Below the pieces are notes generated by a model that did no database searches, was not told where the DNA came from, and saw only the letters and a program-made list of their open reading frames with translations. Below are positions 8,109 to 44,234 of a DNA stretch of 64,000 nt, one piece after another. The stretch lies in the NCBI RefSeq assembly GCF_020697055.1, contig NZ_JAJFBP010000010.1:62001-126000 (forward strand). The letters are read 5' to 3'. Numbering within the stretch: the stretch's first letter is position 1; every line of letters begins with the position of its first letter. The translations under genes and the position numbers were made by a program. The DNA is from Panacagrimonas sp. (lineage in GTDB: Bacteria; Pseudomonadota; Gammaproteobacteria; Nevskiales; Nevskiaceae).

Positions 8109-9661
8109 TGCAGCGTCACCGGTTGCATCAGCCGCGGCGCCCCGTCGGCCGGCAGGTTCTTGAGCGGATCCTGGATCTCGATCTTCGTGCGCCTGATGTC
8201 GTCGAGCGTCCACATCTTGTCCCAGCGCAGCGAGGGCTGCGGCACCAGCGTCTTGCCGTCGGCGCGGATCAGATGGCATTCGCGTGCGTAGCGCTCGAGG
8301 TCGTAGCCGTCGTAGTGCTCGAACCAGGTATACGCCGAGGCGTAGCGATGCGGCTCGAGCGCGTACAGGTGTTCGCAGCCCTGGCTGCAGAACGCGTGCT
8401 TGCGTCCGTCAGCTTCGCGGATGCGCACCGTCGGCTGGTCGTAGCGCGGGAAGACGCACGGCATCTGGCAGACGCGGCAGATCGGCGGGATCTGCGGGAA
8501 CAGCGTCAGCGGCACCTGTCCGTCCTTGGGGTCGCCCATCTGCGCGTAGGCCTCCCAGAACTTGCCGTACAACGCATACCAGCCCGGGTACTTCTTCTCG
8601 AACCACTCGAAGTCGCGCGGCGTCAGCGGATCGATCCGCATGAAGTGCACCGGCCAGGTCGCGGCCAGCATCATCACGATGTTGTGATGGCCCCAGGGAA
8701 TCCGCGCCTTGGCCTCCTCCCAGCCGCGCGGCAGCTTCAGGCCGAACGGTTCGAGCCGCTGGATGTAGGAGCCCGCCCAGTCGTGGCCGATCCATTCATT
8801 CCAGGCCTCGAGGTAGGAGCCGCCGCGGTTCTCCTGGAAGTAGTCGTAGACCGAGCCGATGAACGAATCGAGGAACGAGTGCTGGCGCCAGAACGCGGCG
8901 TCGAAGTCGCGCTGCAGGCGCGGCAGGTTGTCGGGCACCGAGGCGATCGCCGCGAGCGTCGCGTAGCCGTTGGCCATGTGCCGCGCCTCGTCGGACTGCA
9001 CGCTCAGGAACGTGGTGGGCGTGGCCTCGTCGCCGTTGGCGGCGGCCACTTCGGTGAGCGTGACGAAGATCGGGTTGGTGTACGCGGTCTCGGCCACGAC
9101 CTGCAGGTTGATCGCGCCTTCGATCGGATCGCTGACGAAGAAGGCGTCGAGCGCAGGGCGCGCGGCGCGCGTGATCATGTTCTGGCCGCGCACGAGAAAG
9201 CCGCGATCGAAGCCCTCGGGATCACGCGCGTGCTTGGCCAGGTAACGCAGCAGGTGCGCTTCCTGGTTGGTGTGGCGCACCTCGTCCATCATCTGCGCGA
9301 GATATCCCTGGCGCAGTTCGGCGTTGTCGACCGCATCGACCAGCTGGCCGGTGCACTTCATCGCCGCGTACTCGGCGTACGTGGTGACCGGCACCGCCAT
9401 CTTCAGAACCTCGGTCCAGCGCTCCGAGGCCTTGGCCGGCATCTTGGCGCGGGCCATCACGTCGCTCATCGCGCCGTACTGGCGATCGTCCTTGTCACGT
9501 TCCATCTTCACGTAGTCGCGCACCAGGTGACGGAACGGATCGCTGGTCTTCTTGGGCACCTGGTAGTGCATCGGATACCGGCGCGTGGGCGGTTCGTAGT
9601 GGAACGTCCAATCGAAGTCCTTGACCCGGTCGTGCGCCTTGACGAAATCACCGCTGTCCAT
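8105..9661 (-). CDS. Methane/propane-monooxygenase-like hydroxylase alpha subunit (diiron)
   Basis: 518-residue catalytic subunit and first gene of the operon. The ligand pattern is E97, E127 and H130 (DEVRH), E191, E225 and H228 (DEARH), with the conserved Thr195 four residues after E191. These spacings match MmoX within one residue, and HMANGY after the last ligand is typical of MmoX. The C-terminal stretch DGKTLVPQPSLRWDKMWTLD is close to propane monooxygenase PrmA. Expected role is O2-dependent hydroxylation of an alkane, alkene or related hydrophobic substrate. I chose the ATG at 9661 because a GGAGG lies just upstream and upstream codons have no family resemblance. A CRVCQMP / FCSQGCEH cysteine cluster lies near residues 380-425. 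Confidence 0.92.
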   Translation of the reverse strand: MDSGDFVKAHDRVKDFDWTFHYEPPTRRYPMHYQVPKKTSDPFRHLVRDYVKMERDKDDRQYGAMSDVMARAKMPAKASERWTEVLKMAVPVTTYAEYAAMKCTGQLVDAVDNAELRQGYLAQMMDEVRHTNQEAHLLRYLAKHARDPEGFDRGFLVRGQNMITRAARPALDAFFVSDPIEGAINLQVVAETAYTNPIFVTLTEVAAANGDEATPTTFLSVQSDEARHMANGYATLAAIASVPDNLPRLQRDFDAAFWRQHSFLDSFIGSVYDYFQENRGGSYLEAWNEWIGHDWAGSYIQRLEPFGLKLPRGWEEAKARIPWGHHNIVMMLAATWPVHFMRIDPLTPRDFEWFEKKYPGWYALYGKFWEAYAQMGDPKDGQVPLTLFPQIPPICRVCQMPCVFPRYDQPTVRIREADGRKHAFCSQGCEHLYALEPHRYASAYTWFEHYDGYDLERYARECHLIRADGKTLVPQPSLRWDKMWTLDDIRRTKIEIQDPLKNLPADGAPRLMQPVTLQ

Positions 9662-23275: not shown

Positions 23276-24493
23276 TCAGACCGTCAGCGGCCGCGCCGCG
23301 GCGGGACCCGTGTCGATCGCACGGGCCACGACCGGCTCGAGCGGCAGGCGCACGTGCACGGTCAGGCCGTTGCCGTCCGATTCCGCCCAGATCTCGCCAC
23401 GATGGTGCTGCACGATCTTGCGGCAGATGGCCAGGCCGATGCCGGTGCCCTCGTATTCGTCGGTGCTGTGCAGGCGCCGGAACACCGCGAAGATGTTTTC
23501 CAGCTGATCCTTGGCCACGCCGATGCCGTTGTCCTGCACGCGCAGGTGCAGGAACCGCTCCTCGCGTTCGGCGCTGATGTGCACCTCGGGCTTGCTTCCG
23601 GGCTTCTGGAACTTGATGGCGTTGCCGACCAGGTTCTGGAACAGCTGCACCATCAACGACTGCACGGCCGGTACGTCCGGCAGCGGGCCGAAATCCACCG
23701 TGGCCTCCCGATCCGCGATCTCGGCCTTGAGCGTGTTCAGCGCATTGCGCAGCGCCTCGTCGAGCGGACGGCGCTCGGGACGCGCCTCGGTGCGGCCGAC
23801 GCGCGACAGCTGCAGCAGGTCCTGGATCAGCGCCTGCATCTGGCGCACGCCCTGCTCGATGAACTGCAGGAACTCGAGCGCATCGCCATCGAGCTTCTGC
23901 GTGTAGCGCCGCGACAGCAGCTGCGAGAAGCCGGCGATGTTGCGCAGCGGCGCCTGCAGATCGTGCGAGGTGATGTACGCGAACTGCTCGAGCTCGTGCA
24001 CCGCGCGGTTGAGATCGGCGAGCGAACGGCGCAGATCGTCTTCGGCGGCCTCGCGCGCGTGGACTTCCTCGCGCAGCCGCGCGTTGGCGGACTCGAGCTC
24101 CTCGGGCGTCTTCATCTGCAGCAGCTTGGGCACCAGCGGAATGATCGCCATCGCGGTGGCGAGCGACACCACGGCGGTGAGCGCGCGCACCCAGCCCTGC
24201 AGGTAGTAGACCGGCTCCCACACCACCACGATGTCGAGGATGTGGCCGGTGCCGCACAGCACGATGAACGAGGCGAAAAGCGCGATCGCCCAGTTGAAGC
24301 TGATGCGCGTGCCCATCCGCCGGATGAAATAGACGAGCACGACCGGAATCATGAAATACGCAAGCGCGATCGCCGCGTCGCTGATCACGTGCAGCCAGAT
24401 CAGGTCCGGCTTGCGCATGAAGCAGTAACCGTGCGGCAGCAACGCGTCGCTTGCCGCCGATGCTTCGGCTCCAAGGACGGAGAACAGGCTCAT
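23276..24493 (-). CDS. Sensor histidine kinase with ethylene-receptor-like membrane sensor
   Basis: 405-residue kinase. Three N-terminal membrane helices (about residues 33-58, 66-90, 97-118) carry D39, Y46, C80 and H84 in the contexts LIWLHVISDAAIALAYFMIP and FASFIVLCGTGH. These match the Asp25/Tyr32/Cys65/His69 pattern of the copper-dependent ETR1 ethylene-binding domain. A coiled linker follows. The HisKA phosphoacceptor is in FAYITSHDLQAPLRN, and the HATPase has NLVGNAIKF, DNGIGV and GTGIGLAICRKIV, a bacteriophytochrome-like kinase core. The ATG at 24493 follows GGAGT. Two response regulators upstream form its operon. Whether it binds ethylene is not shown. Confidence 0.9.
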   Translation of the reverse strand: MSLFSVLGAEASAASDALLPHGYCFMRKPDLIWLHVISDAAIALAYFMIPVVLVYFIRRMGTRISFNWAIALFASFIVLCGTGHILDIVVVWEPVYYLQGWVRALTAVVSLATAMAIIPLVPKLLQMKTPEELESANARLREEVHAREAAEDDLRRSLADLNRAVHELEQFAYITSHDLQAPLRNIAGFSQLLSRRYTQKLDGDALEFLQFIEQGVRQMQALIQDLLQLSRVGRTEARPERRPLDEALRNALNTLKAEIADREATVDFGPLPDVPAVQSLMVQLFQNLVGNAIKFQKPGSKPEVHISAEREERFLHLRVQDNGIGVAKDQLENIFAVFRRLHSTDEYEGTGIGLAICRKIVQHHRGEIWAESDGNGLTVHVRLPLEPVVARAIDTGPAAARPLTV

Positions 24494-24523
24494 CAAAAAC
24501 TCCTTCGGCCCGATCCGGGCCTA

Positions 24524-25645
24524 CTACCGCTCCAGTCCCCAGGGTCCTTTGCGCCATCGCGCAGGGAATTCTTCGGCGACTTCGGGACGACAGAAGCGCG
24601 TCCCCTGCATGTGCGTGCATCCGACCATCGACAGGCGCGCGTGCTGCTCGGCCAGCGAGACGCCATCGGCGATCACGTCGAGACCCAGCGCGCCGCCCAG
24701 CGCCAGCGTCGCGCGCACGAACCGCAGCGCCGCCTCGGAGGTGTCGCGGGTGACGTCGTCGATCGCACGTGGATCGATGACGATGCCGTCGAGCGGCAGC
24801 TCGGTGAGGTAGTCGAGCGGCGCGCAACCGGGGCGCCAGCCTTCGAGCCACACCTGCGTGCCCGACGCCCGCAGCATGCGCAGATCGTCGACCACCGACG
24901 GCTCGGTGCCGATCTCGCCGCCCGGCAGGCGCAGCGTCACGCTGCTGGCCTTGAGCTCGGCCTGCGCCACGCGTGCGGCGAGCTGGCTCACCAGGCGCGG
25001 CAGCCAGTTCAGCGGAATCGACAACGCCAGCGGCACGCCGTCCAGGCCCGGGCTCAGCCAGCTTCGAAACGCGCTCAGCGCCGTGCTCAGCTGCGTCAGC
25101 TCGCCGCCCACCACGGCGTGCACGCCGACGAACCGGCCGCGGCTCACGTCGACCCACGGCTGGAAGCGCAGCGGCTCGATCGCCGGCCCGGCCTCCGTGG
25201 AATCCTCGGCCGCGCCCGCTTCACCGTCGGCGCCGTGGGTGGCTTGCACCCCGCCCTGCTTGTCGATGGCGCGGCGCACGAAGCTGAGCAGCTCCTCGCC
25301 CAGGCGCTCACCCTTGATCAGGTAATCCTGCGCGCCGAGGCGAAACGCCTCTTCGGCCGCACGCTCGTCGCTCAGCCCGGTCAGCACGACGATCGCGATG
25401 CCCGGATCGGCCTCGCGGATGCGCGCGACGTTGCGCACGCCCTCGCCGTCCGGCAGTCCCAGGTCCACCAGCACGCATGAGAAATGGAAGCGCTTGAGCT
25501 CGCGCAACGCATCGGCCAGGCGCCGGACCGTCTGGATCACGACGGTGCCCGACGAGGTCTGCTCGCGCAGGCTTTCGACGAGCAGACGCGAATCCGCGGG
25601 ACTGTCTTCCAGCAGCAGCAACCCCAGCGGAGCGCCGCTGTTCAT
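24524..25645 (-). CDS. Response regulator with degenerate EAL domain
   Basis: 373 residues. An N-terminal receiver (residues 5-125) carries the acidic pair LLLEDSP, the phosphoacceptor in LVDLGLPDGEG and the lysine in DYLIKGE. A linker leads to an EAL-like domain from about 155. The EAL signature is lost: where EALxR is expected the sequence reads FQPWVDVSRGRFVGVHAVVG, with His replacing the key glutamate. Later motifs also deviate. It is therefore probably a non-catalytic cyclic-di-GMP or protein-binding output. It lies between the histidine kinase and the single-domain regulator in one operon. Confidence 0.85.
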   Translation of the reverse strand: MNSGAPLGLLLLEDSPADSRLLVESLREQTSSGTVVIQTVRRLADALRELKRFHFSCVLVDLGLPDGEGVRNVARIREADPGIAIVVLTGLSDERAAEEAFRLGAQDYLIKGERLGEELLSFVRRAIDKQGGVQATHGADGEAGAAEDSTEAGPAIEPLRFQPWVDVSRGRFVGVHAVVGGELTQLSTALSAFRSWLSPGLDGVPLALSIPLNWLPRLVSQLAARVAQAELKASSVTLRLPGGEIGTEPSVVDDLRMLRASGTQVWLEGWRPGCAPLDYLTELPLDGIVIDPRAIDDVTRDTSEAALRFVRATLALGGALGLDVIADGVSLAEQHARLSMVGCTHMQGTRFCRPEVAEEFPARWRKGPWGLER

Positions 25646-30884: not shown

Positions 30885-31793
30885 ATGACCCGCCACTTCC
30901 TCGAACTGACCGACCTGAGCGCCGCCGAGGCGCGGCGGATCGTGGCGCGGGCCAGCGCCCTCAAGCAGCTGCGCGATCCGGGCTACCGCCCGTTCACCGG
31001 CCGCACGCTGGCGATGATCTTCACCAAGAGTTCGACCCGCACCCGCGTGAGCTTCGAGGCGGGCATGGCCAGGTTCGGCGGACATGCGCTGTTCCTGACC
31101 ACCGCCACGACGCAGCTCGGGCGCGACGAACCGATCGCCGACACCGCCCGTGTGCTCTCGCGGATGTGCGACGCGATCATGATCCGCAACGACTCGCAGG
31201 CGCAGCAGGTCGAGCTGGCCGCGCATTCGCGCGTGCCGGTGATCAACGGCCTCTCCGACATGCATCACCCCTGCCAGATGCTCGCGGACCTGCAATGCTG
31301 GTTCGAGCACCGCGGCGATCCGGCCGGCAAGGTCGCGGCCTGGATCGGCGACGGCAACAACGTCTGCCACTCCTGGATCCAGGCCGCGAAGAAGTTCGGC
31401 TTCACGCTGCGCATCGCCGCGCCACCGGGCTATCTGCCCTCGGCCGATCTGCTCAAGGCCGCCGGCCTGAGCGTGCAGATGGTCGCCTCGCCCGCCGATG
31501 CGGTGCGCGACGCGGACCTGGTCGTGACCGACACCTGGACCAGCATGGGACAGGAGGCCGAGACGCAGCGCCGCCTCGCCGCGTTCGCCGGCTACCAGGT
31601 CGACGACGCGTTGATGGGCAAGGCCCGGCCCGATGCGATCTTCATGCACTGCCTGCCGGCGCATCGCGGCGAGGAAGTCGCCGCCAGCGTGATCGACGGT
31701 GCGCAATCGGTGGTCTGGGACGAGGCCGAGAACCGCCTGTGGGCGCAGATGGCGCTGCTCGAATTCCTGCTCGTGGGCACGCCCTCGAGCTGA
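30885..31793 (+). CDS. argF: Ornithine carbamoyltransferase
   Basis: 302-residue OTCase for arginine synthesis (ornithine + carbamoyl phosphate to citrulline). The carbamoyl-phosphate loop STRTR is in FTKSSTRTRVSFEAGMARFG, with HPCQ in MHHPCQMLADLQ. The ornithine-binding DTWTSMG and the catalytic HCLPAHRGEEV are intact. Length matches the catabolic/anabolic OTCase family (about 305-335) rather than the xanthomonad acetylornithine enzyme. The ribosome site TAGGGACG lies in the tail of a transcription terminator, so argF is probably transcribed by readthrough or attenuation, or from a promoter overlapping the hairpin. Confidence 0.95.
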   Translation: MTRHFLELTDLSAAEARRIVARASALKQLRDPGYRPFTGRTLAMIFTKSSTRTRVSFEAGMARFGGHALFLTTATTQLGRDEPIADTARVLSRMCDAIMIRNDSQAQQVELAAHSRVPVINGLSDMHHPCQMLADLQCWFEHRGDPAGKVAAWIGDGNNVCHSWIQAAKKFGFTLRIAAPPGYLPSADLLKAAGLSVQMVASPADAVRDADLVVTDTWTSMGQEAETQRRLAAFAGYQVDDALMGKARPDAIFMHCLPAHRGEEVAASVIDGAQSVVWDEAENRLWAQMALLEFLLVGTPSS

Positions 31794-31864: not shown

Positions 31865-32653
31865 GTGGATTCTGACGAGAGCGACCGGCGCATCACCGAG
31901 GCCTTGCGACGGGCCGACGACGCGCCCGGCCTGCACGCCGCCTGTCGCGAACTGGCCGCCTCGCTGGGCTTCGAGCACTACTTCTACGCGGTCCGCCTGC
32001 CGCTCTCGCTGTCGGATCCCTACCACTTCTGCCTGTCCGGCTATCCGCGCGAGTGGCGCCGGCGCTACGACTCGCTCGGCTACCTGCGCGTGGATCCGGT
32101 GGTGCGCAACATGATGAGTTCGTCGCTGCCGGTGATCTGGGACGACATCGATCGAAGCGATGCCGCCGTGGAGGTGTTCTTCCACGAAGCGGCCGATCAC
32201 GGGCTGGGCCATGGCATCTCGGCGCCCGTTGCCGGCCGTCACGGCGAGATCGCCCTGATGTCGCTGGCGCGCGGGATCGGGCATCCGATTCCGCGCGATC
32301 CGCTGGAGCGGCATCGGCTGTGCACGCGCCTGCACTGGATGTCGACGGTGCTGCACGAGTCGGTGCGCCGCCTGGTGCTCAATCACGAAGGCGCGCCGCG
32401 GATCTCGGCGCCGCTGTCGGAGCGCGAAAAGGAGTGCCTGATGTGGGCCGCCGACGGCAAGACCACCGCCGACATCGGCAAGGCGCTGAACATCACCGAG
32501 CGCACGGTTTTGTTCCACATCGAAAGCGCCGGCCGCAAGCTCGGCGTCAGCGGCCGTCACAACATCATTTCGCGGGCGGTGGCACTGGGGGAGATCGAGC
32601 TGCATCAGCAGGCGCTGCGCTCGCTCGACGTGATCCCGGTGATGCACGAGTGA
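31865..32653 (+). CDS. LuxR-type acyl-homoserine-lactone receptor (solo in this window)
   Basis: 262-residue LuxR-family regulator with an N-terminal autoinducer-binding domain and a C-terminal HTH. The ligand-pocket residues are intact with TraR spacing: W64, Y68, D77 (followed by P78) and W92, in PREWRRRYDSLGYLRVDPVV and LPVIWDD. The HTH is LSEREKECLMWAADGKTTAD followed by RTVLFHIE. The GTG at 31865 is the only start fitting the domain; its ribosome site is weak. No LuxI-type synthase gene is present in the window. A lux box lies 55 bp after its stop, in front of the EAL gene. Confidence 0.9.
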   Translation: MDSDESDRRITEALRRADDAPGLHAACRELAASLGFEHYFYAVRLPLSLSDPYHFCLSGYPREWRRRYDSLGYLRVDPVVRNMMSSSLPVIWDDIDRSDAAVEVFFHEAADHGLGHGISAPVAGRHGEIALMSLARGIGHPIPRDPLERHRLCTRLHWMSTVLHESVRRLVLNHEGAPRISAPLSEREKECLMWAADGKTTADIGKALNITERTVLFHIESAGRKLGVSGRHNIISRAVALGEIELHQQALRSLDVIPVMHE

Positions 32654-32707
32654 GTCCGGCTCCAGGTCGTCCACTGTTTCTGTAACATTATCAATTGCTT
32701 GTAACGT

Positions 32708-32727
32708 ACCTGTAGGATCCTACAGTA
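32708..32727. promoter_or_regulatory. lux box (LuxR-type binding site)
   Basis: ACCTGTAGGATCCTACAGTA matches the classic Vibrio fischeri lux box at 17 of 20 positions. Its core CTGTAGGATCCTACAG (32710-32725) is a perfect 16-bp palindrome with the CT-N12-AG signature. It is centred about 68 bp before the EAL-gene ATG, suited to activating that gene at a promoter near 32745-32760. Confidence 0.85.
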
Positions 32728-32785
32728 GCCGTGATCGATGTCACGGGCTGAGCTTCGGCGTCCTCGTTTTCCGGCGCGTTAACAG

Positions 32786-33673
32786 ATGATTCCCGTTGCA
32801 CGGCCTGCATCGCCCGACGGGCGAACCCCGCGCCTTCGCAGCATCGCCGCCGACCTGCCGCTCTGCCACGCCTCGGTTCGCGCCGCGTTCGAGGCCAGTG
32901 AATTCGAGATCGCCTACCAGCCGATCCTGCGACTGCCGGACCTTCGTCCGGTCGCCTGCGAGGCCCTGCTGCGCTGGACCCATCCCCGTCGCGGCGCGCA
33001 GCGCCCGGCCCAGTTCGTCCCCATCCTCGAGCGTTCGCAGCTGTCACTCGACGTGGGCGACTGGCTGCTCACCGAGGCCAGCCGCCAGCTGCTGCAGTGG
33101 GAGCGTGCGGGCCTGGCCGCCTTGCGCCTGTCGGTCAATGTCGCGCCGCTGCAGATCCAGTCACCCGATTTCGTGACGCGGCTGCAGGACACCCTCGACG
33201 CGTGCGCCCTGCCCGGACATCGCCTGTCGGTCGAGATCACGCAGGACCTTCTGCTCGATCGGCCCGACGTCGCGGCCGCGGCGGCGGCGCAGCTGTCGAA
33301 ACTGGGCGTGAGCCTGGAACTCGACGACTTCGGCGGCGGCCCGTCGGTGATCGGTCATCTCAAGGCCGCTGGCCTGCACGGCTTCAAGATCGATCGTCGC
33401 TTCCTCGACGGGCTGGACAGCGCTCGCGACCAGGACCCGCATTCCGATCTGCGCATCCTGGTGGAGCTGGCCCGCAACCTGGGCCTGCGCTGCGTCGCCG
33501 AAAGCGTGCAGACCGACGACGAGCTGCGCGTGCTCGAGTCGCTCGGTGTCGGCGAAGCCCAGGGCAACCTCTTCTGCGCGGCGATGCCGCCGGATGCGTT
33601 CGAGAGCTACCTGCGCGGGCGTCACGGCAACGATCCGCAGCGGCCGCGCGCCACGAGCATGCGGGGGGACTGA
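32786..33673 (+). CDS. EAL-domain cyclic-di-GMP phosphodiesterase
   Basis: 295-residue stand-alone EAL domain. Catalytic elements are present: EALLRW (ACEALLRWTHP), the Asn in LSVNVAPLQ, Glu in LSVEITQ, the DD pair in LELDDFGGGPS, Lys in GFKIDRRF, Glu in CVAESVQTDDEL and Gln in GEAQGNLF. The second glutamate of EITE is replaced by Gln and loop 6 is altered (DFGGGPS), so activity may be modulated. It should cleave cyclic-di-GMP to pGpG. A lux box upstream places it under the LuxR-type regulator encoded just before it. Lower cyclic-di-GMP would reduce BcsA-dependent cellulose synthesis. Confidence 0.9.
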   Translation: MIPVARPASPDGRTPRLRSIAADLPLCHASVRAAFEASEFEIAYQPILRLPDLRPVACEALLRWTHPRRGAQRPAQFVPILERSQLSLDVGDWLLTEASRQLLQWERAGLAALRLSVNVAPLQIQSPDFVTRLQDTLDACALPGHRLSVEITQDLLLDRPDVAAAAAAQLSKLGVSLELDDFGGGPSVIGHLKAAGLHGFKIDRRFLDGLDSARDQDPHSDLRILVELARNLGLRCVAESVQTDDELRVLESLGVGEAQGNLFCAAMPPDAFESYLRGRHGNDPQRPRATSMRGD

Positions 33674-33826: not shown

Positions 33827-34678
33827 ATGTCGCTGCCGCTCCTTTCCGATCTCTCCCTGACCGTCACCCGCGCGCTGGCCGAGGACATCGGCAGCGGCGA
33901 CGTCACCGCGCAGCTGGTGCGCGCCGATCAGCGTGGCAAGGCGCGCGCGATCGCACGCGAGCCGGCCGTGCTGTGCGGACGCCCGTGGGTCGACGAGGTG
34001 TTCCGCCAGATCGATCCGACCGTCACGGTGACCTGGCAGGCCGCCGAAGGCGCGCGCGTCGAGCCCGACCAGGTGCTCTTTGCGCTGGACGGCCCGTCGC
34101 GCAGCCTGCTCACCGGTGAGCGCACCGCGCTCAACTTCCTGCAGGCGCTCAGCGGCACCGCGACCGAGACCGCGCGCTACGTCGAGGCCGTGCGCGGCAC
34201 CGGCGCGCAGATCGTGGACACGCGCAAGACGCTGCCGGGTCTGCGCAACGCGCAGAAATACGCGGTGGGCATCGGCGGCGGCGTGAACCATCGCATCGGC
34301 CTGTACGACGGCATCCTGATCAAGGAAAACCACATCGCCGCGGCCGGCGGCATCGTCGCGGCGATCGCGCAGGCGCGCGCACTGGAAGCGAACGTACCGC
34401 TGATGGTGGAGGCCGAGTCGCTCGACGAGGCGCGTTCGGCGCTGGCCGAGGACGTCGACGTGCTGCTGGTGGACGACTTCGACACGCCGCAGATCCGCGA
34501 AGCGGTGGCGCTGGCGCGCGCGCATCGCGCCAACGGCGGTCGCACGCTGATCGAGTACTCCGGGGGCGCGACGCTGGCGCGGATCCGCGAACTGGCCGAC
34601 TGCGGCGTCGATCGCATCTCGATCGGCAGCCTGACCAAGCACGTGCGCGCGATCGACCTGTCGATGCGCTTCCTGTAG
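33827..34678 (+). CDS. nadC: Nicotinate-nucleotide pyrophosphorylase (carboxylating)
   Basis: 283-residue quinolinate phosphoribosyltransferase for NAD synthesis (quinolinate + PRPP to nicotinate mononucleotide). Typical signatures are ALAEDIGSGDVTAQLV, ERTALNFLQALSGTATETAR, VDTRKTLPGLRNAQKYAV with the substrate arginine, HRIGLYDGILIKENHI, and ISIGSLTKHVRAIDLSMRF at the end. Length is normal (about 280-300). The ATG at 33827 starts MSLPLLSDLSLTVTRALAED. Its stop codon forms part of a GTAGCCCG palindrome. Confidence 0.95.
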   Translation: MSLPLLSDLSLTVTRALAEDIGSGDVTAQLVRADQRGKARAIAREPAVLCGRPWVDEVFRQIDPTVTVTWQAAEGARVEPDQVLFALDGPSRSLLTGERTALNFLQALSGTATETARYVEAVRGTGAQIVDTRKTLPGLRNAQKYAVGIGGGVNHRIGLYDGILIKENHIAAAGGIVAAIAQARALEANVPLMVEAESLDEARSALAEDVDVLLVDDFDTPQIREAVALARAHRANGGRTLIEYSGGATLARIRELADCGVDRISIGSLTKHVRAIDLSMRFL

Positions 34679-34736: not shown

Positions 34737-35135
34737 CTATTTCGGCGGCGTGGCGTTCCACAAGCGCGGCGGATCCGGCGGCACCTGCGAGATGCTCAGC
34801 TCCGGCTCGGCCAGCGGATCACGAGAACCCCAGGTGTCCCTCCAGGCCTTCAGACGCTCGACGTTGGTGCGGATCTCCGCGCTCTCCGGCGCCAGGCGCG
34901 CGGCGCGCTGGAGCAGGTCCATCGCATCGTCGTAGCGGCCCTGCTCGGCTTTCACCACCGCCAGATTGTTCAGCGCCGCCGGATCGAACGGGTTCACCCG
35001 CAGCTGCCGTTCGAACCGGAACTGGTTGCCCGCAGCGGCCTGCGCTGCGTCATCCTGCGCCGTCGACGGCGCCGAAACGGCCAGGAGCACGGCCAGGATG
35101 GCCGACGCCCCGATCGCACGAGGCACCGCCGTCAC
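34737..35135 (-). CDS. Small exported TPR-like protein of the cellulose operon
   Basis: 132-residue protein beginning at a GTG (35135) that overlaps the bcsC TGA by 4 bp. A signal peptide is likely: IGASAILAVLLAVSAPSTAQ. One or two TPR units follow: NPFDPAALNNLAVVKAEQGR then YDDAMDLLQRAARLAPESAE. The C-terminus is proline-rich. It is the last gene of the cellulose operon and probably acts in the periplasm near BcsC, perhaps as a scaffold; no precise homologue is recognised. Confidence 0.75.
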   Translation of the reverse strand: MTAVPRAIGASAILAVLLAVSAPSTAQDDAAQAAAGNQFRFERQLRVNPFDPAALNNLAVVKAEQGRYDDAMDLLQRAARLAPESAEIRTNVERLKAWRDTWGSRDPLAEPELSISQVPPDPPRLWNATPPK

Positions 35136-38100
35136 GGCAGCTTCTTCCGGTAATCCGCGAACGGAACGACCGGACGTGGCGGCACCTGCACCGCGTGGGT
35201 CCTGCCCGGCGACCAGCGCAGGTAGGCCAGCACGCGCGACTCGTCGTAGTCCTGCGCGTTGTCGAAGCTCGCGCGCGCGCCCACCACCAGCTGCGGCGCG
35301 ATCAGGTACTCGACCTGTCCGCCGAAGCTCAGCCCGGTGCCGGTGTGGCTGTTGGATTCGTATCCGGCCGCAATGCCCAGTTCCGGATTGGCGGCCGAGA
35401 ACTCCTCGATCGCCGCCTGCAGCTCGCTGTCTTCGGGATACAGCGCCGCGCCTTCCTCGCGGAAGTTCTGTAGGCCGATCGCGCCGTGGATCTTCCACGA
35501 GTAGCGGTTGTGCCCGCCGACCCACTCCACCGGCAGCGCCAGCGACAGATAGCGCTGCGGGCTGAAGTAGCCGCCGTGGCCGAACGTGAAACGGCGCAGG
35601 TTCTCGTCGAAGAAGAAGCTGGTGATGTTGAAACCCACCGTCACGCGCTGGATCGCATCGCGATAGACGTGCAGGTAGGCGCCGCCGCCGAGGCTTGCCT
35701 CGGTGTTGTCCTCGACGTTCTTGCCTTCGTAGAAGTGGAAGCCGCCGGAGGCGTACAGGCCGCCCTTGCCGACGTCGTAGGTGAGCTCCAGCCGGCCGCC
35801 GTTGGCGGTCACGCCGCCCCATTCGCGACCCGAGAGCGGATCGCGCGTGCCGGCGTAGCTCAGCAGCGAATCGGTCACCGGACGGCGCGAGATGTCGAGA
35901 TCGACGAGCCAGTGCTCGCCGAAGTGCGGGGTCCAGCCGATGCCGCCCACGACGTTGCCCACCTCGAATCCGATCGGCGAGGTGCCCACGTCCACGACGA
36001 AGTTGCCGAGCTGGTACGCCACGCCCGCGGCCAGGCCGCCGTCGTTCTGATCGAAGCCCAGTCCGGTGGTGTCGGCGAACGCCAGCGTGCCGAACAGCGG
36101 CAGTTCCCCGCCCCTGACGGTACCCGCGTCGAGGAACACCGGCACCAGCCGCAGGTTCAGGCGTCCGGCGCCGAAGGCACCGAAGCTCACTTCCATCGGC
36201 ATCTCGATGTCGTCGAGCTGATCCAGCCCCGAGACGCCGTCACGATTGCGCAGCCCGATGCCCGCGCCGACCCACATGCTGCGGCGATCGTCGAGTTCGG
36301 CGATCTCGCGCAGGATCTCGTCGGTCTCGGTGGTCGGAACCTTGGGCTCCTCGTACGCGTAGTCGCGCGAGCGCAGCACCGGATCGATTTGCAGCTTCAT
36401 CGCCTCGGGACCCAGCGGCGGCGGATCGAACGTGCGCGGCACATCGAGCTTGAGCGCGTCGGTCTGCGGCTTGGGTTCGAAGCGCGGCAGCTTGTAGCCC
36501 GGCGGCGGAATCGGCGGAAGATCGTTTGTCGTCGTGCCGGCCTGCGCCAGCTGCACGAAGGGCTGGCCGGACAGGTTGGCGTTCCACGGATCCCCGGACG
36601 CGCGCTCGCGCAGCGCGACCTTGCGCAGCGCACCGCGCGCCGATCGTTTCTTCGGAAGCGCCTGATCGCCGCGCCGCAGCGACACCGGACGCAGGTGCGT
36701 GTCGAGCATCTGCAGACGCAGCTTGCCGTGACCGCCGCCGCCATCGGGATCGAGTTCGAGCGCACGACGGAAATAGCGCAGCGCGCGCCCGTCGTCGCCG
36801 CGCGCCTTGGCCACGCGACCGGCGAGAACGTGCAGCTTGCGGCTGTCGGGCGCGATGCGCAGTGCCTCGTCGAGATAGCGGTCGGCCTCGTCCTCGCGAC
36901 CGGTCGCCAGGCTCGCCTGCACCATGCCCTGGTAGGCGTCGAGGTTGCGGTTGTCGAGCGTGAGCGCGTAGCGATACAGCGACGTGGCGCGATCGTGCTC
37001 GCCGGCCTGGTCATAGAGTCCGGCGAGCGCCATCACCAGGCGCGGATCGTCGGGATTGGCGCGCAGCGCCGGTTCGAGTAGATCGTAGGCGCGCGCGATG
37101 TTGCCGCTTTGGCGAACCTCCTCGGCCTGGCGCAGGCGCTGCGCGATGCGCATCTCGGTGAGCGTCGCCTCCTGCTGCAACGTCAGGCGAGGACCGCGCG
37201 CGAGCTGATCGACCACCGCGTCGAACTCGGCGTTCTGTTGCAGCTTGAGCAGCAGCCCGGCGTAGGCCAGTCGCAGATCGGCGTCGGACTCCGGATTGCG
37301 CGCCAGTTCCTGGCGCAGCAGGTACAGGCCGCGGCCGGGCTCACCGGTTTCGCTGTAGGCGAACGCGACCGAGCCGACCAGTTCCGGCGATCGCGCATAC
37401 GGCTCGACGCCCGCGAGCAGCGCGAGCGCCTCGTCGCGCCGCCCCTGGCGCGCGAGCACCGCGGCGCGCTCGGTCTGATAGCGCACCCACAGGCGCTGCT
37501 GCACCGTCGCCATCTCGCGGCTGCGCTCGTTCTCCGGAACCTGCTCGAGCCACATCAGGCCGTCGTACCAGTTCTGTTCCTCGGAGGCGATCAGCGCGCG
37601 GATGTACGCGGCCTCGCCGCGCTGCGGTCCGCTGCTGGGCAGCCCGTCGATCAGGCTGCGCGCCTCGTCGCGACGGTTCTGCGAGATGTAGAGCCGCGCC
37701 AGGTCCAGGCGCGGCCACGTGCTCTGCGGATCGGAGGCCAGCGCTTCGCGAAGCAGGCGCTCGGCACCGCTGGTGTCGTTCTTCGCAAGCGCGTCGGCGG
37801 CCTGCTGGCGCAAGGCCAACGCCTGCAGCGAAGCGACCGATCCCACCTTGGCCTGCTGCTCGGGCGTCATGCCGCGATACACCACCAGCGCCTCGGTCAC
37901 GCGTCCGCTCTGCGCGAGCGCCGCCATCAGGCCGCGCGCGGCGTCGACGTTGTCCGGATCGTGCTTGAGCACGTCGCGGTAGATCGTCTCGGCCTGCGCC
38001 GGACGCTTCTGCGCCAGGATCGTGTCGGCCAGCGTCAGGCGCACGCTCGGCTCGCGCGCGGCGATGGCCGGCGATCCGTCGACCGCGGCCCGCAATCGCC

Positions 38101-39250
38101 GCTCGGCTTCCGGCAGCCGACCCTTGCTTCGATCGAGTTCGGCCAGGCGCACCTGCTCCCAGAATTTGGCGCTGGCCAGCGCCGAACTCCACTGGTGTGC
38201 GCGACCGGGCGAGCGGCGCGAGGCTTCCTGCAGCAGCTCGCGCGCTTCGCCGAAACGATCCTGTCGCAGCCGGATCACGCCCAGGCCCGCGAGCGCATCG
38301 GCGTCGCGGGGATTCTTCGCGCGGATCGCAGCGAAGGACTTCTCGGCCTCGTCGATCTGGCCTGCATTGAACTGCGCCCAGGCGTTCTTCAGCGCACGGC
38401 CGCGCACGTCGATGCGCGGTGCCACCGTGCCCCTCCCGGCGACGCCCTTGCCGCCGCCACCCGACCGCGCGGCCGCGAGCTTGTTGGCCACCTGCGTGTC
38501 GTCGCCGTAGCGCTGCAGATAGGCCTGGAAATAACGCTGGTCCTGCGGCCTGCCACCCATCCACAGCAGCGCCTGGCGCCACACCGGCTGCACCGGCTGG
38601 CGGGCCGAATCGTCCGCCGCCAGCGCCATCAGCTGGTCGAGTCCCTGGCGACGGGTCTCTTCGCGATAGGTCAGGTGCTGCGCCAGCGCCAATCGGTAGT
38701 CGGCGTTGTCCGGCCGCTGCTTGACCAGGTTCTCGAGACCTTGGCGCGCCTCGGCCCAACCACCTTCGGCACCGGCGAGCGTCTGCCAGTACTCGAGCGC
38801 CACCGGGCCTTCGGGCGGCTTGCCACCGAACACGCGCTGGTACTCGGCGATCGAGTCGTCGTAGCGCTGCGTGCGTGCGAGCTCGCGCGCACGGGCGAGA
38901 TCGTCCGATGCGCCCGGCGTGGCCGCGCCCTTGGCGAGCGCGGTTTCCAGGCGATTGAGATCGGGATGATCCGGGCGCAGTTGGCGCAGGCCCTGCAGGT
39001 ACTGCTTGGCCATCTCGGGCCGGCCGCTGCGGATCTCCGCGGCGGCCAGTCCGGCCATCGCATCGGCGTTGTCCGGATCGACGCGCAGCAGTTTGAGCCA
39101 GGCCTCGCGCGCGAGGTCGAAGCGACCTTTCTGTTCCCAGTAGCGCGCCTGCGACGCGATCTGCCCGCTCGCCACATCCGTCGCCGCCACGCCCGTGGCC
39201 GACGCCAGCGCCATGGCCAGGCACACGATGGGTCCGAATCTCAGCCGCAT
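35132..39250 (-). CDS. bcsC: Cellulose synthase export subunit BcsC (TPR scaffold and outer-membrane barrel)
   Basis: 1372-residue exported protein, larger than E. coli BcsC (about 1157). A signal peptide (IVCLAMALASATGVAA) precedes roughly 850 residues of tandem TPR repeats, for example RYWEQKGRFDLAREAWLKLL and FDLA/NPRDADALAGLGVIR units. A Pro/basic linker leads to a C-terminal BcsC barrel domain (from about 1010; SMWVGAGIGLRNRDGVSGLD). It spans the periplasm and outer membrane to export the glucan chain. It follows bcsB by 36 bp. The C-terminus ends PRPVVPFADYRKKLP, and its stop overlaps the small TPR gene. Confidence 0.92.
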   Translation of the reverse strand: MRLRFGPIVCLAMALASATGVAATDVASGQIASQARYWEQKGRFDLAREAWLKLLRVDPDNADAMAGLAAAEIRSGRPEMAKQYLQGLRQLRPDHPDLNRLETALAKGAATPGASDDLARARELARTQRYDDSIAEYQRVFGGKPPEGPVALEYWQTLAGAEGGWAEARQGLENLVKQRPDNADYRLALAQHLTYREETRRQGLDQLMALAADDSARQPVQPVWRQALLWMGGRPQDQRYFQAYLQRYGDDTQVANKLAAARSGGGGKGVAGRGTVAPRIDVRGRALKNAWAQFNAGQIDEAEKSFAAIRAKNPRDADALAGLGVIRLRQDRFGEARELLQEASRRSPGRAHQWSSALASAKFWEQVRLAELDRSKGRLPEAERRLRAAVDGSPAIAAREPSVRLTLADTILAQKRPAQAETIYRDVLKHDPDNVDAARGLMAALAQSGRVTEALVVYRGMTPEQQAKVGSVASLQALALRQQAADALAKNDTSGAERLLREALASDPQSTWPRLDLARLYISQNRRDEARSLIDGLPSSGPQRGEAAYIRALIASEEQNWYDGLMWLEQVPENERSREMATVQQRLWVRYQTERAAVLARQGRRDEALALLAGVEPYARSPELVGSVAFAYSETGEPGRGLYLLRQELARNPESDADLRLAYAGLLLKLQQNAEFDAVVDQLARGPRLTLQQEATLTEMRIAQRLRQAEEVRQSGNIARAYDLLEPALRANPDDPRLVMALAGLYDQAGEHDRATSLYRYALTLDNRNLDAYQGMVQASLATGREDEADRYLDEALRIAPDSRKLHVLAGRVAKARGDDGRALRYFRRALELDPDGGGGHGKLRLQMLDTHLRPVSLRRGDQALPKKRSARGALRKVALRERASGDPWNANLSGQPFVQLAQAGTTTNDLPPIPPPGYKLPRFEPKPQTDALKLDVPRTFDPPPLGPEAMKLQIDPVLRSRDYAYEEPKVPTTETDEILREIAELDDRRSMWVGAGIGLRNRDGVSGLDQLDDIEMPMEVSFGAFGAGRLNLRLVPVFLDAGTVRGGELPLFGTLAFADTTGLGFDQNDGGLAAGVAYQLGNFVVDVGTSPIGFEVGNVVGGIGWTPHFGEHWLVDLDISRRPVTDSLLSYAGTRDPLSGREWGGVTANGGRLELTYDVGKGGLYASGGFHFYEGKNVEDNTEASLGGGAYLHVYRDAIQRVTVGFNITSFFFDENLRRFTFGHGGYFSPQRYLSLALPVEWVGGHNRYSWKIHGAIGLQNFREEGAALYPEDSELQAAIEEFSAANPELGIAAGYESNSHTGTGLSFGGQVEYLIAPQLVVGARASFDNAQDYDESRVLAYLRWSPGRTHAVQVPPRPVVPFADYRKKLP

Positions 39251-39286
39251 GGAACGGATCTCCCTGTTGTTCCGATGACGGTGCGC

Positions 39287-41587
39287 TCAGCGACCACCGC
39301 GCCGCGATTGGGCGAGATTGCGCATCAGGCGGTACAACACCAGCGCCAGCAGCGCCGACAGCACGATCGCGATGATCGACAGGATCAGCGGCTGCTTGGC
39401 GAACCACCAGCGGATGCCCAGGAAGAAGGGCAGCTTGCCGACCGCGTACTGCGGCGCCAGATCGTAGTACGAGACCTTCTTGCTGTTGAGCAGCGTCAGG
39501 TCGCCCCCGATGAAGTGACGGCGTTCCGGATCGTCGAGCATGTCCGACAGCTCCATCAGCCTGGCTTCGTCCTGCGCGGCAAACACCACCACGGTGCGCT
39601 TGCGCGACAGCGGCGATTCGAAGCTCATCAGGCTGCCGAGCCCCTTGCCGGCCTCCAGGATCATCCGCGTGGCGTGGGCGCGCGCACCTTCCAGATCACG
39701 TCCTTCGAATCGTGCGCGCAGGCGCTCCACCGGACCGATCACCTGCAGCTGCGTGCCGCTGGTGCCGCTGGTCACCGGCAGATGGTCGGCCCACTCGGTG
39801 AGCAGCGGCTGGCTCGCCGGCGTGCCGAACACCAGCAGGTCCGCGTCGGACGCGGCCGCCTTGACCGATCCGGCGTCGCTGACCCGCAGGCGCGTGGCAG
39901 GGAAACCCGTGGCGTCACCGATGTGGCCCAGCACGTTGAGGAAGGTCGACACTTCCGCCGCGCTCGGGCGCGCCGGCAGCACGGCGACGGTCTGCGCGAG
40001 GTCGGCGTACTTGCTGAACGGGAACGCGCCGTCCGTGAACAGCTTCAGGTCCGGCAGGTAGGTGTAGTGCGGCAGCGACGTCAGGTCGACCGTCGAATCC
40101 GCGTCGATCGAACCGCGCAGATTGTCCTCCGGCACGTCCTCGCACTCGCCCTTCTTGCGCATCTCGAAGTTGTACTGCCACTTGAGCTCGTTGTCGGATG
40201 CGAACTTGTAGACCGGCACGTAGTACTTCTCGCGCTTGCTCACCTCGGGCAGCCCGGCCTTCTTCTTGGCTTCCGCGCTCATCGGCGTGGGCGAGTCGAC
40301 CATCAGCAGCGGCACCGCGCGCGCGAACTGGTTGTTGACGTCGAAGTCGAGCGTCGACTTCTGTCCGGGCGTCGGTGTGTAGCGATAGCCGACGTCGAGC
40401 TTGGCGCCCTTGCTCTTCCAATAGAACAGGTCGGGCGGCAGGTCCCAGGCCACGCGGATCGCCGGAGGGTACTGGCCGCGCACCTGCAGCTGATCGGCCG
40501 ATACGCGCTCGCCGATCTGCACGACGCGATCGGTCGGCACCCAGCGCGGCGCATCGTAGGCCTGGCGCAGCGGCGCCTCGGCCATCTCGCGCACCGAGGC
40601 GCTCGGACCCGACAGCGCCTGCGTGCCCAGCGTCAGCGCGCGAGCTGCCGCGAGCAGGCTGGCGGCATCGTCGCCGGTGACGATCAGCAGCTTGCCGTTG
40701 CGATCGGCCGGGTTGTCGGCGATCGCCACCTGCGCGCCGCTGGACTTGCTCACGTCCACCGCGGTGCCCAACCGCGGACGCGTCGCGATCATCACGGCAT
40801 TGCCCTTGGCCGGCAGGCGGCCGAGCTGCGCCGGGAACTTCGAGCCGCGGTACTCGGCCAACGCGCCGAACCACGAGGCCACCATGCCGGCGGCCTGCAG
40901 CTCGTCGGGAGTCGGTTCGGCCGGCAGCACGAACGGCAGCACCAGCTCGCGCTTGTCGCGCGGATCGAAGAACGGCTCGGGCAGCAGCGCCAGTTCGTTG
41001 GCCAGCGGAATGCGCTGCAATTCGAGTTCGAGCACCGACTCGTTGGCGATCACCGACCACAGCGTCGAATGCGCCGGGTCCTCGCACTCCTTGGTGTAGT
41101 GCATCACCGCGCGCAGCCCCAGCCGGCTGTAGCCCACCAGCGTGCGCGGATCGATGTCCACCGTGTGCTCGCCACCGTCGGCGGTGTCGGACTTGAGCTG
41201 GACGTTGCCCACGACCTCGTTGTTGACCAGCACCGTCAAGTGCGACCACTCGAAGATCAGCGCCGGCGAATGCGCGTAGCGCAGCTTGAGCCGCGCCTTG
41301 GTCACGATCTCGTCGTTGCGGATCGCGACGGGAAAGTCGATCTGGTGCTCGGTGCCGCGCAGACGCACCGGCTGTTCCGCGCCGATCTCCTTGAGCAGAA
41401 GGCTGCGCGACTCCGTCGCACCGCTCGGCACGCCGGTCGCGGCCGGTGCCGTCACGCGTTCTTCCTGCGCGGACGCCGGCGACGTGGCCGCCATGCCCAC
41501 CACCAACGACATCAGCGCGGATGCCGCCGCGATCCTGCACGACCCGCGTCGAGCTTTGCTCATCCCTTTCATGATCTGGTCCGTCAT
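39287..41587 (-). CDS. bcsB: Cellulose synthase regulatory/periplasmic subunit BcsB
   Basis: 766 residues from the ATG at 41587, which overlaps the bcsA stop (ATGA). A signal region (SALMSLVVGMAATSPASAQE) is followed by the two carbohydrate-binding/flavodoxin-like repeats of BcsB: GTEHQIDFPVAIRNDEIVTK, LTVLVNNEVVGNVQL and LWSVIANESVLELELQRIPL. A C-terminal membrane anchor (ILSIIAIVLSALLALVLYRL) packs on BcsA. BcsB guides the nascent glucan through the periplasm and is required for BcsA activity. Methionines at codons 6 and 9 are alternative starts. Confidence 0.93.
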   Translation of the reverse strand: MTDQIMKGMSKARRGSCRIAAASALMSLVVGMAATSPASAQEERVTAPAATGVPSGATESRSLLLKEIGAEQPVRLRGTEHQIDFPVAIRNDEIVTKARLKLRYAHSPALIFEWSHLTVLVNNEVVGNVQLKSDTADGGEHTVDIDPRTLVGYSRLGLRAVMHYTKECEDPAHSTLWSVIANESVLELELQRIPLANELALLPEPFFDPRDKRELVLPFVLPAEPTPDELQAAGMVASWFGALAEYRGSKFPAQLGRLPAKGNAVMIATRPRLGTAVDVSKSSGAQVAIADNPADRNGKLLIVTGDDAASLLAAARALTLGTQALSGPSASVREMAEAPLRQAYDAPRWVPTDRVVQIGERVSADQLQVRGQYPPAIRVAWDLPPDLFYWKSKGAKLDVGYRYTPTPGQKSTLDFDVNNQFARAVPLLMVDSPTPMSAEAKKKAGLPEVSKREKYYVPVYKFASDNELKWQYNFEMRKKGECEDVPEDNLRGSIDADSTVDLTSLPHYTYLPDLKLFTDGAFPFSKYADLAQTVAVLPARPSAAEVSTFLNVLGHIGDATGFPATRLRVSDAGSVKAAASDADLLVFGTPASQPLLTEWADHLPVTSGTSGTQLQVIGPVERLRARFEGRDLEGARAHATRMILEAGKGLGSLMSFESPLSRKRTVVVFAAQDEARLMELSDMLDDPERRHFIGGDLTLLNSKKVSYYDLAPQYAVGKLPFFLGIRWWFAKQPLILSIIAIVLSALLALVLYRLMRNLAQSRRGGR

Positions 41588-43746
41588 CGCTTGGATGGAG
41601 AAATTGCCTTCTTCGCACTGCCCAGACCGAGCGAGAAGAGCTTGCTGAAAGCCGTGCCGACCTTGTCCGGCGGTCGTCGCTCGGCCCAATGGAGCCACGC
41701 ATCCGCGCGGCCGAAAATCGCATAGACCAGCTGGCGTTCCTGCGGAAGCGTGAGCTTGGCGAACTTCATCGCCAGGATCTCGCCCGAGGAACGCGTGATG
41801 TCGGCATCGGTCCACACGACCTGGTAGTCCGGCATCAGCGCCACCTGCATGCGCGTGCCCAGCGGCACGTTGACGGCGCGCGGCAGCCGCAGCATCACGC
41901 CGCCTTCGGAGAGGTCGAGCGTGCGCACTTCCATCTCGCCGCCATCGGGCAGCTTGATGCGCGCCGGCAGTTCCGCGGTGATGCGCACCGAACGCCGGAT
42001 CTCGCGCTGCTCCCACGCGACCGCGGTGCAGACCGATAGGATCACGATGTTGTAGCAGGTCCACAGCAGGTTCAGCACGAGGCTGTCGGCGTTCTCGCCA
42101 AACTTCGTGAACAGGTCCCAAAGGCCCACGGCGAATCCGATCACGTTGAGCGTGAGCAGGATGATGTAGGGCAGCGCGATGCGCCGGTCGAAATAGTTGC
42201 GGTCGCGGCTGGTGCCCTTGGCCGTGACGTTGAACTTGCCGAACTTGGGACTGATCAGCGCGAGCATCGTCGGCAGCACGATGTACACGCACAGGATCGT
42301 CTCGTAGACCTCCGCCCAGAACGAATAACGATAGGGCCCCTGCAATCGCGAGTGCGTCATCTGCGCGTGCACCAGGTGCGGCAGCGCGTACGCCGCGAAC
42401 ACCAGCGCCGAGGCGATGATGATCTGCGCATCGAACAGCAGGAACGCCAGCGGCGCGGTGAGGAAGACGATGCGCGGCAACCCGAAGAAGAAGTACAGCA
42501 TCGAGTTCAGGTAGCAGAGTCGCTGCGGCAGCGTCAGGCCGGGCCCGAACAACGGATTGTCGATCCGGAAGATCTGCGACATGCCGCGCGCCCAGCGGAT
42601 GCGCTGGCGGATGTGGCCCGACAGGGATTCCGTGGCGCGGCCCGCCGCCTGCGGCAGATTGATGTACGCGGTGTTCCAGCCCTTGCGCTGCAGCCGCAGC
42701 GAGGTGTGCGCGTCCTCGGTGACCGTCTCGGTCGCCACGCCGCCGATCTGGTCGAGCGCCGAGCGCCGCAGCACCGCACAGGAGCCGCAGAAGAACGTCG
42801 CGTTCCACAGGTCGTTGCCGTCCTGCAGCAGGCCGTAGAACAGCTCGTTCTCGTTGGGGATGGACTTGAAGGTGCCGAGATTGCGTTCGAACGGATCGGG
42901 CGAGAAGAAGTGGTGCGGCGTCTGCAGCATCGACAGCTGGCGATCCTTCAGGAACCAGCCCATCGACACCTGCAGGAACGAGCGCGTCGGCACGTGATCG
43001 CAATCGAAGATCGCCACGAATTCGGAGGTCGACGATTCCAAGGCGTGATTCACGTTTCCAGCCTTGGCGTGCCGATTGTCGGGTCGCCGGACGTAGATCG
43101 CGCCCAGCTCGTGGCACAGCGAGGCGACCTCGTCGCGCTTGCCATCGTCGAGCACCAGCACGCGCATGCGGTCACGCGGCCAGTCCATGTCCAGCGCCGC
43201 GATGATCGTCGGGCGCAGCACCGCCACCGGCTCGTTGAGCGTCGGGATCATCACGTCGACCGTCGGCCATGTGGTGACGTCGCGCGGCATCGGCACGGGC
43301 GGACGCTGCAAGGGCCACAGCGTCTGCAGATATCCGAGCATCAACACGGTGAACGCATACAGCTCCGCCGCGATCAGTCCGAACGCGAACGTGATGTCGA
43401 CCCAGTTGTACCGGGGGTCGCTGTAATCCATCGACTCGGTCAGGCGCCAATAGATGTATCGCGCGCTGAGCAGCGTGGAGAGCGCCATCAGGCCGATCGA
43501 GACCAGGCGCCCTTCGATGCGATTGAGCAGCAGCGCCGCGAGCAGGCAGATCACGGCGAACAGCACCTGCCAATGCAGCGGCAGCGGCGCCGCGATCACC
43601 GCGTAGCCGGCGAACACGCCGAGCACCAGCATCACCAGCAGCATCAGTCGATTGCCCAGACCGATGCGGCCGGCATAGGAATCGGCGCGCGCGTCCCAGT
43701 TGCCCGAAGGGGCAACGGATCGGACGGTGAGATTCTGCTCAGCCAC
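41584..43746 (-). CDS. bcsA: Cellulose synthase catalytic subunit BcsA
   Basis: 720 residues from a GTG at 43746 that lies 6 bp after GGAGG; an upstream ATG at 43797 lacks such a site. It is a processive GT2 enzyme with N-terminal and central membrane helices. Catalytic motifs are LVLDDGKRDE, the FDCDHVP metal site, TVTEDAHTS and QRIRWARG. The C-terminal PilZ domain has an Arg-rich motif (QREIRRSVRITAE) and LDLSEGGV for cyclic-di-GMP binding. It polymerises UDP-glucose into beta-1,4-glucan and extrudes it. Operon order is bcsA-bcsB-bcsC; bcsZ and bcsQ are not in the window. Confidence 0.95.
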   Translation of the reverse strand: MAEQNLTVRSVAPSGNWDARADSYAGRIGLGNRLMLLVMLVLGVFAGYAVIAAPLPLHWQVLFAVICLLAALLLNRIEGRLVSIGLMALSTLLSARYIYWRLTESMDYSDPRYNWVDITFAFGLIAAELYAFTVLMLGYLQTLWPLQRPPVPMPRDVTTWPTVDVMIPTLNEPVAVLRPTIIAALDMDWPRDRMRVLVLDDGKRDEVASLCHELGAIYVRRPDNRHAKAGNVNHALESSTSEFVAIFDCDHVPTRSFLQVSMGWFLKDRQLSMLQTPHHFFSPDPFERNLGTFKSIPNENELFYGLLQDGNDLWNATFFCGSCAVLRRSALDQIGGVATETVTEDAHTSLRLQRKGWNTAYINLPQAAGRATESLSGHIRQRIRWARGMSQIFRIDNPLFGPGLTLPQRLCYLNSMLYFFFGLPRIVFLTAPLAFLLFDAQIIIASALVFAAYALPHLVHAQMTHSRLQGPYRYSFWAEVYETILCVYIVLPTMLALISPKFGKFNVTAKGTSRDRNYFDRRIALPYIILLTLNVIGFAVGLWDLFTKFGENADSLVLNLLWTCYNIVILSVCTAVAWEQREIRRSVRITAELPARIKLPDGGEMEVRTLDLSEGGVMLRLPRAVNVPLGTRMQVALMPDYQVVWTDADITRSSGEILAMKFAKLTLPQERQLVYAIFGRADAWLHWAERRPPDKVGTAFSKLFSLGLGSAKKAISPSKR

Positions 43747-44234
43747 GTGCGACCTCCGGGGCCGACGAATGCCGCGGGTCTTGTCCGCCCAGCGCATCGG
43801 GGCGCGCGACGCGCGCAGCCCGGACCCGGCAACCGCTCTTAGTTGTTTGGAGGCACGCCTTCAGACGAGGCAATTTGATTCCTTTTTTTCGCCGAACCGC
43901 GGATGTCGGCGCGTTCGCCGAGCCTGCCGTGCCGGTGCAGTGGCGCGTGAATCTTCTGCGCCCCGTTTCAGGCCAGCGAACCGACGCGGCCGGACCCAAC
44001 GGAGCCGGATACTAGCTCATTGTCAGAAGCCCATGGCGCACGTTTTCCCGGTGAAGCCGGGAACGTTTTCTGCTCGAAATTTCGACGCCAAGCTAGACGC
44101 GATATATGCGCGGTATCGAACAGACATGTGCGGTAGCAGGCAGTGCCGGCGACAGCGACAGCGAACAACATCCACACCGCGTTGCGCGGTGGTGAACGTC
44201 CGTGAAGACGTGCTCCCGAACGAGGACGCGCCGG
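43747..44234. other. 488-bp non-coding region upstream of bcsA
   Basis: No convincing gene on either strand. It contains a T-rich stretch (CCTTTTTTTCGCC near 43890), a hairpin TTCCCGG-tgaag-CCGGGAA (44045-44063) followed by TTTT, and the 12-bp palindrome TCGAAATTTCGA at 44074-44085. That palindrome recurs at 44248-44259, inside the end of the next small gene. It probably carries the bcsA promoter or leader. Confidence 0.5.

Follow-up and report, generated by a model that had tools for sequence, protein, structure and literature searches.

A LuxR-type receptor, a lux box and an EAL gene between argF and nadC in Panacagrimonas: probable remnant of a luxR-luxI-EAL operon

Receptor, lux box and EAL gene in the argF-nadC slot

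The window analysed here, a stretch of 64,000 nucleotides, corresponds to positions 62001-126000 of contig C65 in the draft genome of a Panacagrimonas species (72 contigs, 4.66 Mb, 90.6% complete). The closest named relative, Panacagrimonas perspica DSM 26377 (G029 in our genome set), belongs to the same genus and has an essentially complete genome. On the forward strand of the window, a gene for an argF-type ornithine carbamoyltransferase (30885-31793) is followed by a luxR gene (31865-32653), a lux box (32708-32727), a gene for a stand-alone EAL-domain protein (32786-33673) and nadC, encoding quinolinate phosphoribosyltransferase (33827-34678), which gives the order argF-luxR-lux box-EAL-nadC. 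We identified argF from its open reading frame and from synteny, the same left flank being present in P. perspica, in G006 of the same family and in G068 of a different family within the order, and nadC from synteny with P. perspica and G006.

The luxR gene has a GTG start and encodes a QscR/RhlR-like receptor of 262 aa with an N-terminal Autoind_bind domain (Pfam, 6.5e-35) and a C-terminal GerE helix-turn-helix (8.5e-16), the architecture of the LuxR family. Its closest PDB structures are QscR (best match, 1.7e-36), RhlR and LasR. An alignment with QscR confirmed that the residues contacting the acyl-homoserine lactone (AHL), W64, Y68, D77 and W92, stand at the exact spacing of W57, Y61, D70 and W85 in TraR, as an earlier note on this DNA had claimed; P78 is kept as well. 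From these sequence features we infer that the receptor binds an AHL. It shares 82% identity with the LuxR at the argF slot of P. perspica, and the NG86 dN/dS of 0.18 between the two Panacagrimonas genes indicates purifying selection. No remoter relatives were found at E<=1e-52 among 369 genomes of the class. The same genome encodes four further Autoind_bind proteins. Three of its other LuxR-type receptors lie at or near contig ends (L035 in C26, 1-1837; L036 in C11, 8167-8979) and two of them are close paralogues, so repeats may have interrupted the assembly.

The luxR and EAL genes are separated by 132 bp, in the window as in P. perspica. This region contains the site ACCTGTAGGATCCTACAGTA, a dyad of about 20 bp with the form CTGT-N8-ACAG upstream of the EAL gene. 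Its match to the Vibrio lux box, 17/20 on both strands, and the perfect palindrome of its inner 16 bp bear out the earlier description, and shuffled windows gave 0 matches to the site CTGTAGGATCCTACAG. With up to 3 mismatches allowed, the 16-bp core has one other occurrence (3 mismatches) in the entire 4.66-Mb genome. Between the window and P. perspica the box is identical in 18/20 positions versus 47/111 of the remaining intergenic columns, and among 200 shuffled intergenic pairs no stretch of 20 columns exceeded 15 identities. We therefore regard the box as a conserved footprint and not as a chance palindrome. The window LuxR most likely binds this predicted box. There is no clear -10 element at class-II spacing behind it, the sole sigma-70-like match lying on the opposite strand. 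No terminator-like site was found between luxR and EAL, so some read-through into the EAL gene is possible.

The site could also be read as a LexA/SOS box. CTG-N10-CAG is common to both site classes, the right flank ACAGTA agrees with the SOS consensus, and several other CTGT-N8-ACAG sites of the genome are SOS-like, for example CTGTATATAAATACAG beside recA. However, the core of the window site, AGGATCCT, lacks the A/T-rich alternation of the genome's SOS-like boxes, is unlike that of the recA-side site and matches the core of the Vibrio lux box. Four relatives also have a box downstream of luxR, which in three of them immediately precedes luxI, and the cores of these boxes are not of the SOS type. 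We consider it very improbable that the site belongs to the SOS class. SOS (LexA)-like sites of the form CTG-N10-CAG, CTGTATATAAATACAG and CTGTATATCCATACAG, were seen at L014, L011 and L015 around positions 1501-1516, one of them beside recA. A genome-wide search with CTGT-N8-ACAG yielded 8 sites versus 18 in the reversed control, several of them SOS-like, and no regulon was visible.

The same slot in related genomes and the origin of the unit

P. perspica has the order argF-luxR-box-EAL-nadC-bcs, as in the window. In G006 the slot reads argF-luxR-box CTGTAAGAAATTACAG-luxI-orfX (135 aa)-canonical EAL-nadC, and in G068 argF is followed by two luxR genes, the box CTGTCAAACCTGACAG and luxI. At another chromosomal site, G030 has luxR, the box CTGTAGGAAGTGACAG and luxI side by side, and an EAL gene is oriented divergently to its luxR. 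The distance from the core end of the box to the luxI start codon is 63 bp in G006, 64 bp in G068 and 53 bp in G030; to the EAL start codon it is 60 bp in the window and 61 bp in P. perspica. Because the box sits where these relatives have the luxI promoter box, control of the EAL gene by LuxR is the natural reading. The EAL proteins of the window and G006 share 36% identity, so their orthology rests on synteny.

In the receptor tree, the window LuxR clusters with those of P. perspica, G030 and G068 (support 99/98), and the G030 and G068 receptors of this clade both have luxI alongside. The LuxR of G006 forms a separate branch in the free tree; a single clade with the argF-locus receptors was not rejected (p-AU 0.45).

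We think it probable that the unit switches the EAL gene in response to an AHL and is the remnant of a luxR-luxI-EAL operon that has lost luxI and orfX and has retained the luxI promoter and its box before EAL. An ancestral quorum-sensing operon of this composition would have stood between argF and nadC, and luxI, with the small gene orfX, would have been lost from the slot. As the luxI promoter with its box would have stayed put, the EAL gene would have moved up and would now start where luxI formerly started. AHL-bound LuxR would then bind the box and switch EAL on, and cell density, sensed through the cell's own LuxI from a second locus or through the signals of neighbours, would set the dose of a c-di-GMP-handling protein. 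Since the box is by its place the old luxI autoinduction site, AHL-bound LuxR most likely activates EAL; the lack of a good -10 element at the expected spacing makes the sign of the regulation uncertain. Both the direction, activation, and the activity of the EAL protein are what we infer.

Several observations were made at related loci. The small gene orfX (128-135 aa, no Pfam match) lies between luxI and EAL and overlaps luxI by a few bases; it was seen in G006 (L027, 10415-10822) and G010 (L029, 2475-2861), is absent in the window and is a possible unknown component of these quorum-sensing operons. In G009 a box behind luxR (L028, ~9128-9143, reverse strand) precedes a histidine-kinase gene, and a near-identical box accompanies luxI on a different contig (L070 in C55, 806-1426); this is possibly a second case of rewiring. 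The dyads CCCCTATCGAATTTGAGGGG (L030 in P. perspica C5, ~8315-8335, reverse strand) and CCTCGCCTACAAACGCGAGG (L029 in G010) lie upstream of luxI beside the other receptor type and may represent a different lux-box variant.

The EAL protein and the neighbouring cellulose operon

The EAL gene encodes a protein of 295 aa with a full EAL domain (3.4e-51). The earlier note had described its catalytic residues as intact, and indeed all eight metal and catalytic residues are present (E59, N118, E150, D180, D181, K201, E239 and Q259). The description does not extend to loop 6, which reads DFGGGPS versus the DFG(T/A)GYSS usual in active enzymes, or to the second, loop-stabilising glutamate of the ELTES motif, which is replaced by Q153. 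We take Q153 to be the equivalent of E268 in RocR numbering. Both changes are common to the window and the argF-slot EAL of P. perspica, and neither is seen in the EAL proteins that accompany complete luxR-luxI pairs in G006 and at purD in P. perspica. The gene also evolves faster and is less constrained than its surroundings: the window and P. perspica proteins are 58% identical versus 81-85% for the neighbouring genes, with an NG86 dN/dS of 0.39 versus 0.18-0.28. The altered loop 6 and glutamate, together with the faster evolution, make the phosphodiesterase activity of the protein uncertain, and it might cleave c-di-GMP weakly or bind it instead.

A stronger version of this doubt is that the protein is no longer a phosphodiesterase at all and has either become a c-di-GMP receptor or begun to decay, in which case AHL would be coupled to c-di-GMP binding and not to its breakdown. 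That the same loop and glutamate changes occur in both Panacagrimonas species, in a protein so much more divergent than the products of the adjoining genes, speaks for this, as does the role of the altered residue: in an EAL model this glutamate hydrogen-bonds the glycines of loop 6, the signature of which was described in the same study (PMC2994820). On the other hand, all eight catalytic and metal residues have been retained, and EAL domains whose signature residues deviate in part (class II) can still function (PMC12900916). We see a loss of phosphodiesterase activity as a serious possibility but lean against it.

Elsewhere in the window, a response regulator gene (24524-25645, reverse strand) encodes a protein whose EAL domain aligns to profile positions 68-236 alone and lacks an EAL motif; it adjoins a kinase gene (23276-24496) whose product has an ethylene-receptor-like N-terminal domain. 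At the corresponding place, G006 has a full EAL domain.

The unit has a cellulose operon as its convergent neighbour (34737-43797, reverse strand), consisting of bcsA (with PilZ), bcsB, bcsC and a small TPR gene. The operon had been placed as starting about 1 kb further on, and cellulose had been proposed as the output of the unit. It is the 3' end of the operon (34737) that lies about 1.06 kb past EAL; the start of bcsA, at 43797, is about 10 kb away. In G006, which has a full luxR-luxI-EAL unit, nadC is followed by murI. With the operon convergent, its start so distant and murI next to nadC in G006, proximity is weak evidence, and any effect of the unit on cellulose is speculative.

Source of the signal

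There is no synthase gene in the window, as the earlier note had stated. When the luxI search that it proposed for the remaining genome was run (PF00765), two LuxI-family genes were found, and a synthase-free genome is rejected. One of them (C32:167-775, 113 bits) is complete and stands alone between purD and purC, with no luxR or EAL gene there. In P. perspica the same slot reads purD-luxR-luxI-EAL-purC. No further complete luxI was found in the 90.6% complete genome. The second luxI-like frame, on C15 (L034, 5107-5769, reverse strand), covers only profile positions 27-179, without the N-terminal part, and looks like a broken or decayed gene. P. perspica also has an intact lone luxI (C1:1644093) with no luxR nearby. 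The designation of the receptor as a LuxR solo therefore applies locally, where no luxI stands beside luxR in argF-luxR-EAL-nadC, and not to a genome with another, complete luxI. Of the earlier interpretation as a whole, the AHL-type LuxR, the conserved lux box and the EAL gene do form one unit; its solo character is local, loop 6 of its EAL protein is degenerate, and the cellulose link had proximity as its sole basis.

Two refinements of the remnant reading concern where the signal comes from. The lone purD-purC LuxI might serve the receptor and EAL gene between argF and nadC, so that two complementarily stripped loci would make up one circuit. The genome's only complete luxI found does stand without luxR and EAL in a slot that luxR, luxI and EAL occupy together in P. 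perspica. However, the window LuxR does not belong to the purD-locus type, orthology with the purD-locus LuxR of P. perspica being rejected (p-AU 2e-8), and simple orthology of the purD-slot luxI genes between the two species is rejected as well (p-AU 0.004). In addition, no CTG-N10-CAG lux-type box was found upstream of the lone luxI, and any of the four other Autoind_bind proteins could be its receptor. We regard such a circuit as rather doubtful. The fuller scenario, in which two luxR-luxI-EAL loci were dismantled complementarily and parts of two signal pairs came to form one hybrid circuit acting on a c-di-GMP protein, with no positive feedback on the synthase, strikes us as unlikely.

The receptor might instead have lost its partner synthase and respond mainly to the AHLs of other species, like SdiA, which arose in this way (PMC12086679). 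Both Panacagrimonas genomes with the short argF unit, of which that of P. perspica is essentially complete, lack a LuxI of the partner type, that of G030 and G068, and receptor and box have been conserved nevertheless. Against this, a self-made AHL is likely to be available from the luxI on C32, and we hold a receptor devoted mainly to foreign signals to be a tentative proposal at best. In either form, the reading of the unit as the remnant of a luxR-luxI-EAL operon is kept.

Known systems and meaning of the unit

Two elements of this reading are already known, namely solos that arose by luxI loss, as SdiA did in the Enterobacteriaceae (PMC12086679), and lux-box control of a GGDEF/EAL gene beside luxI, as in Nitrospira (PMC8553950). 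Like SdiA, the window receptor has been retained in a conserved slot where relatives keep luxI between the receptor and the next gene (sdiA-luxI-uvrY); it differs in that the window unit keeps a luxI-type lux box before the next gene, EAL, and that the genome retains another complete luxI. In Nitrospira, NspR1/NspI have a shared lux box before luxI and a GGDEF/EAL gene, with induction by C8-HSL seen in reporters and binding in gel shifts (PMC8553950). Both there and in the window a LuxR and a lux box adjoin a c-di-GMP gene, but in Nitrospira there is a luxI gene, which diverges from the GGDEF/EAL gene, whereas the window lacks luxI and its EAL protein carries no GGDEF domain. QscR of Pseudomonas aeruginosa, an orphan receptor that uses the AHL of another circuit, is the best PDB match of the window LuxR and likewise has a synthase elsewhere in the genome; the target gene in the window unit differs. 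In a passage of a review (PMC6559022), quorum sensing by GinI/GinR of Komagataeibacter is described as raising a c-di-GMP phosphodiesterase, with a hypothesised link to cellulose. The proposed logic, in which an AHL acts on a phosphodiesterase and might thereby affect cellulose, is the same; luxI is present there, and that passage does not describe loss of the synthase or inheritance of the box. In the literature we found no description of an EAL gene inheriting the luxI promoter at a slot where relatives retain luxI, nor of complementary loss at a second quorum-sensing locus.

The literature that we searched on this group contains almost no quorum-sensing work. In the genomes of the order, five complete luxR-luxI loci were seen, and four (the purD locus of P. 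perspica, G010, G006 and G030) have an EAL gene beside or near them, the order in G010 being luxR-luxI-orfX-(REC-EAL). Just 5-19 EAL domains were found per genome, and by our own arithmetic their density would lead one to expect an EAL neighbour at 1-2% of loci, a rough guide because the loci share ancestry. AHL loci in this order frequently come with an EAL gene, a pattern that points to a lasting connection of quorum sensing with c-di-GMP. One chromosomal slot, with and without luxI, shows how an orphan receptor can arise: once the synthase gene has gone, the adjacent gene, here one for a c-di-GMP protein, takes over the promoter left behind.
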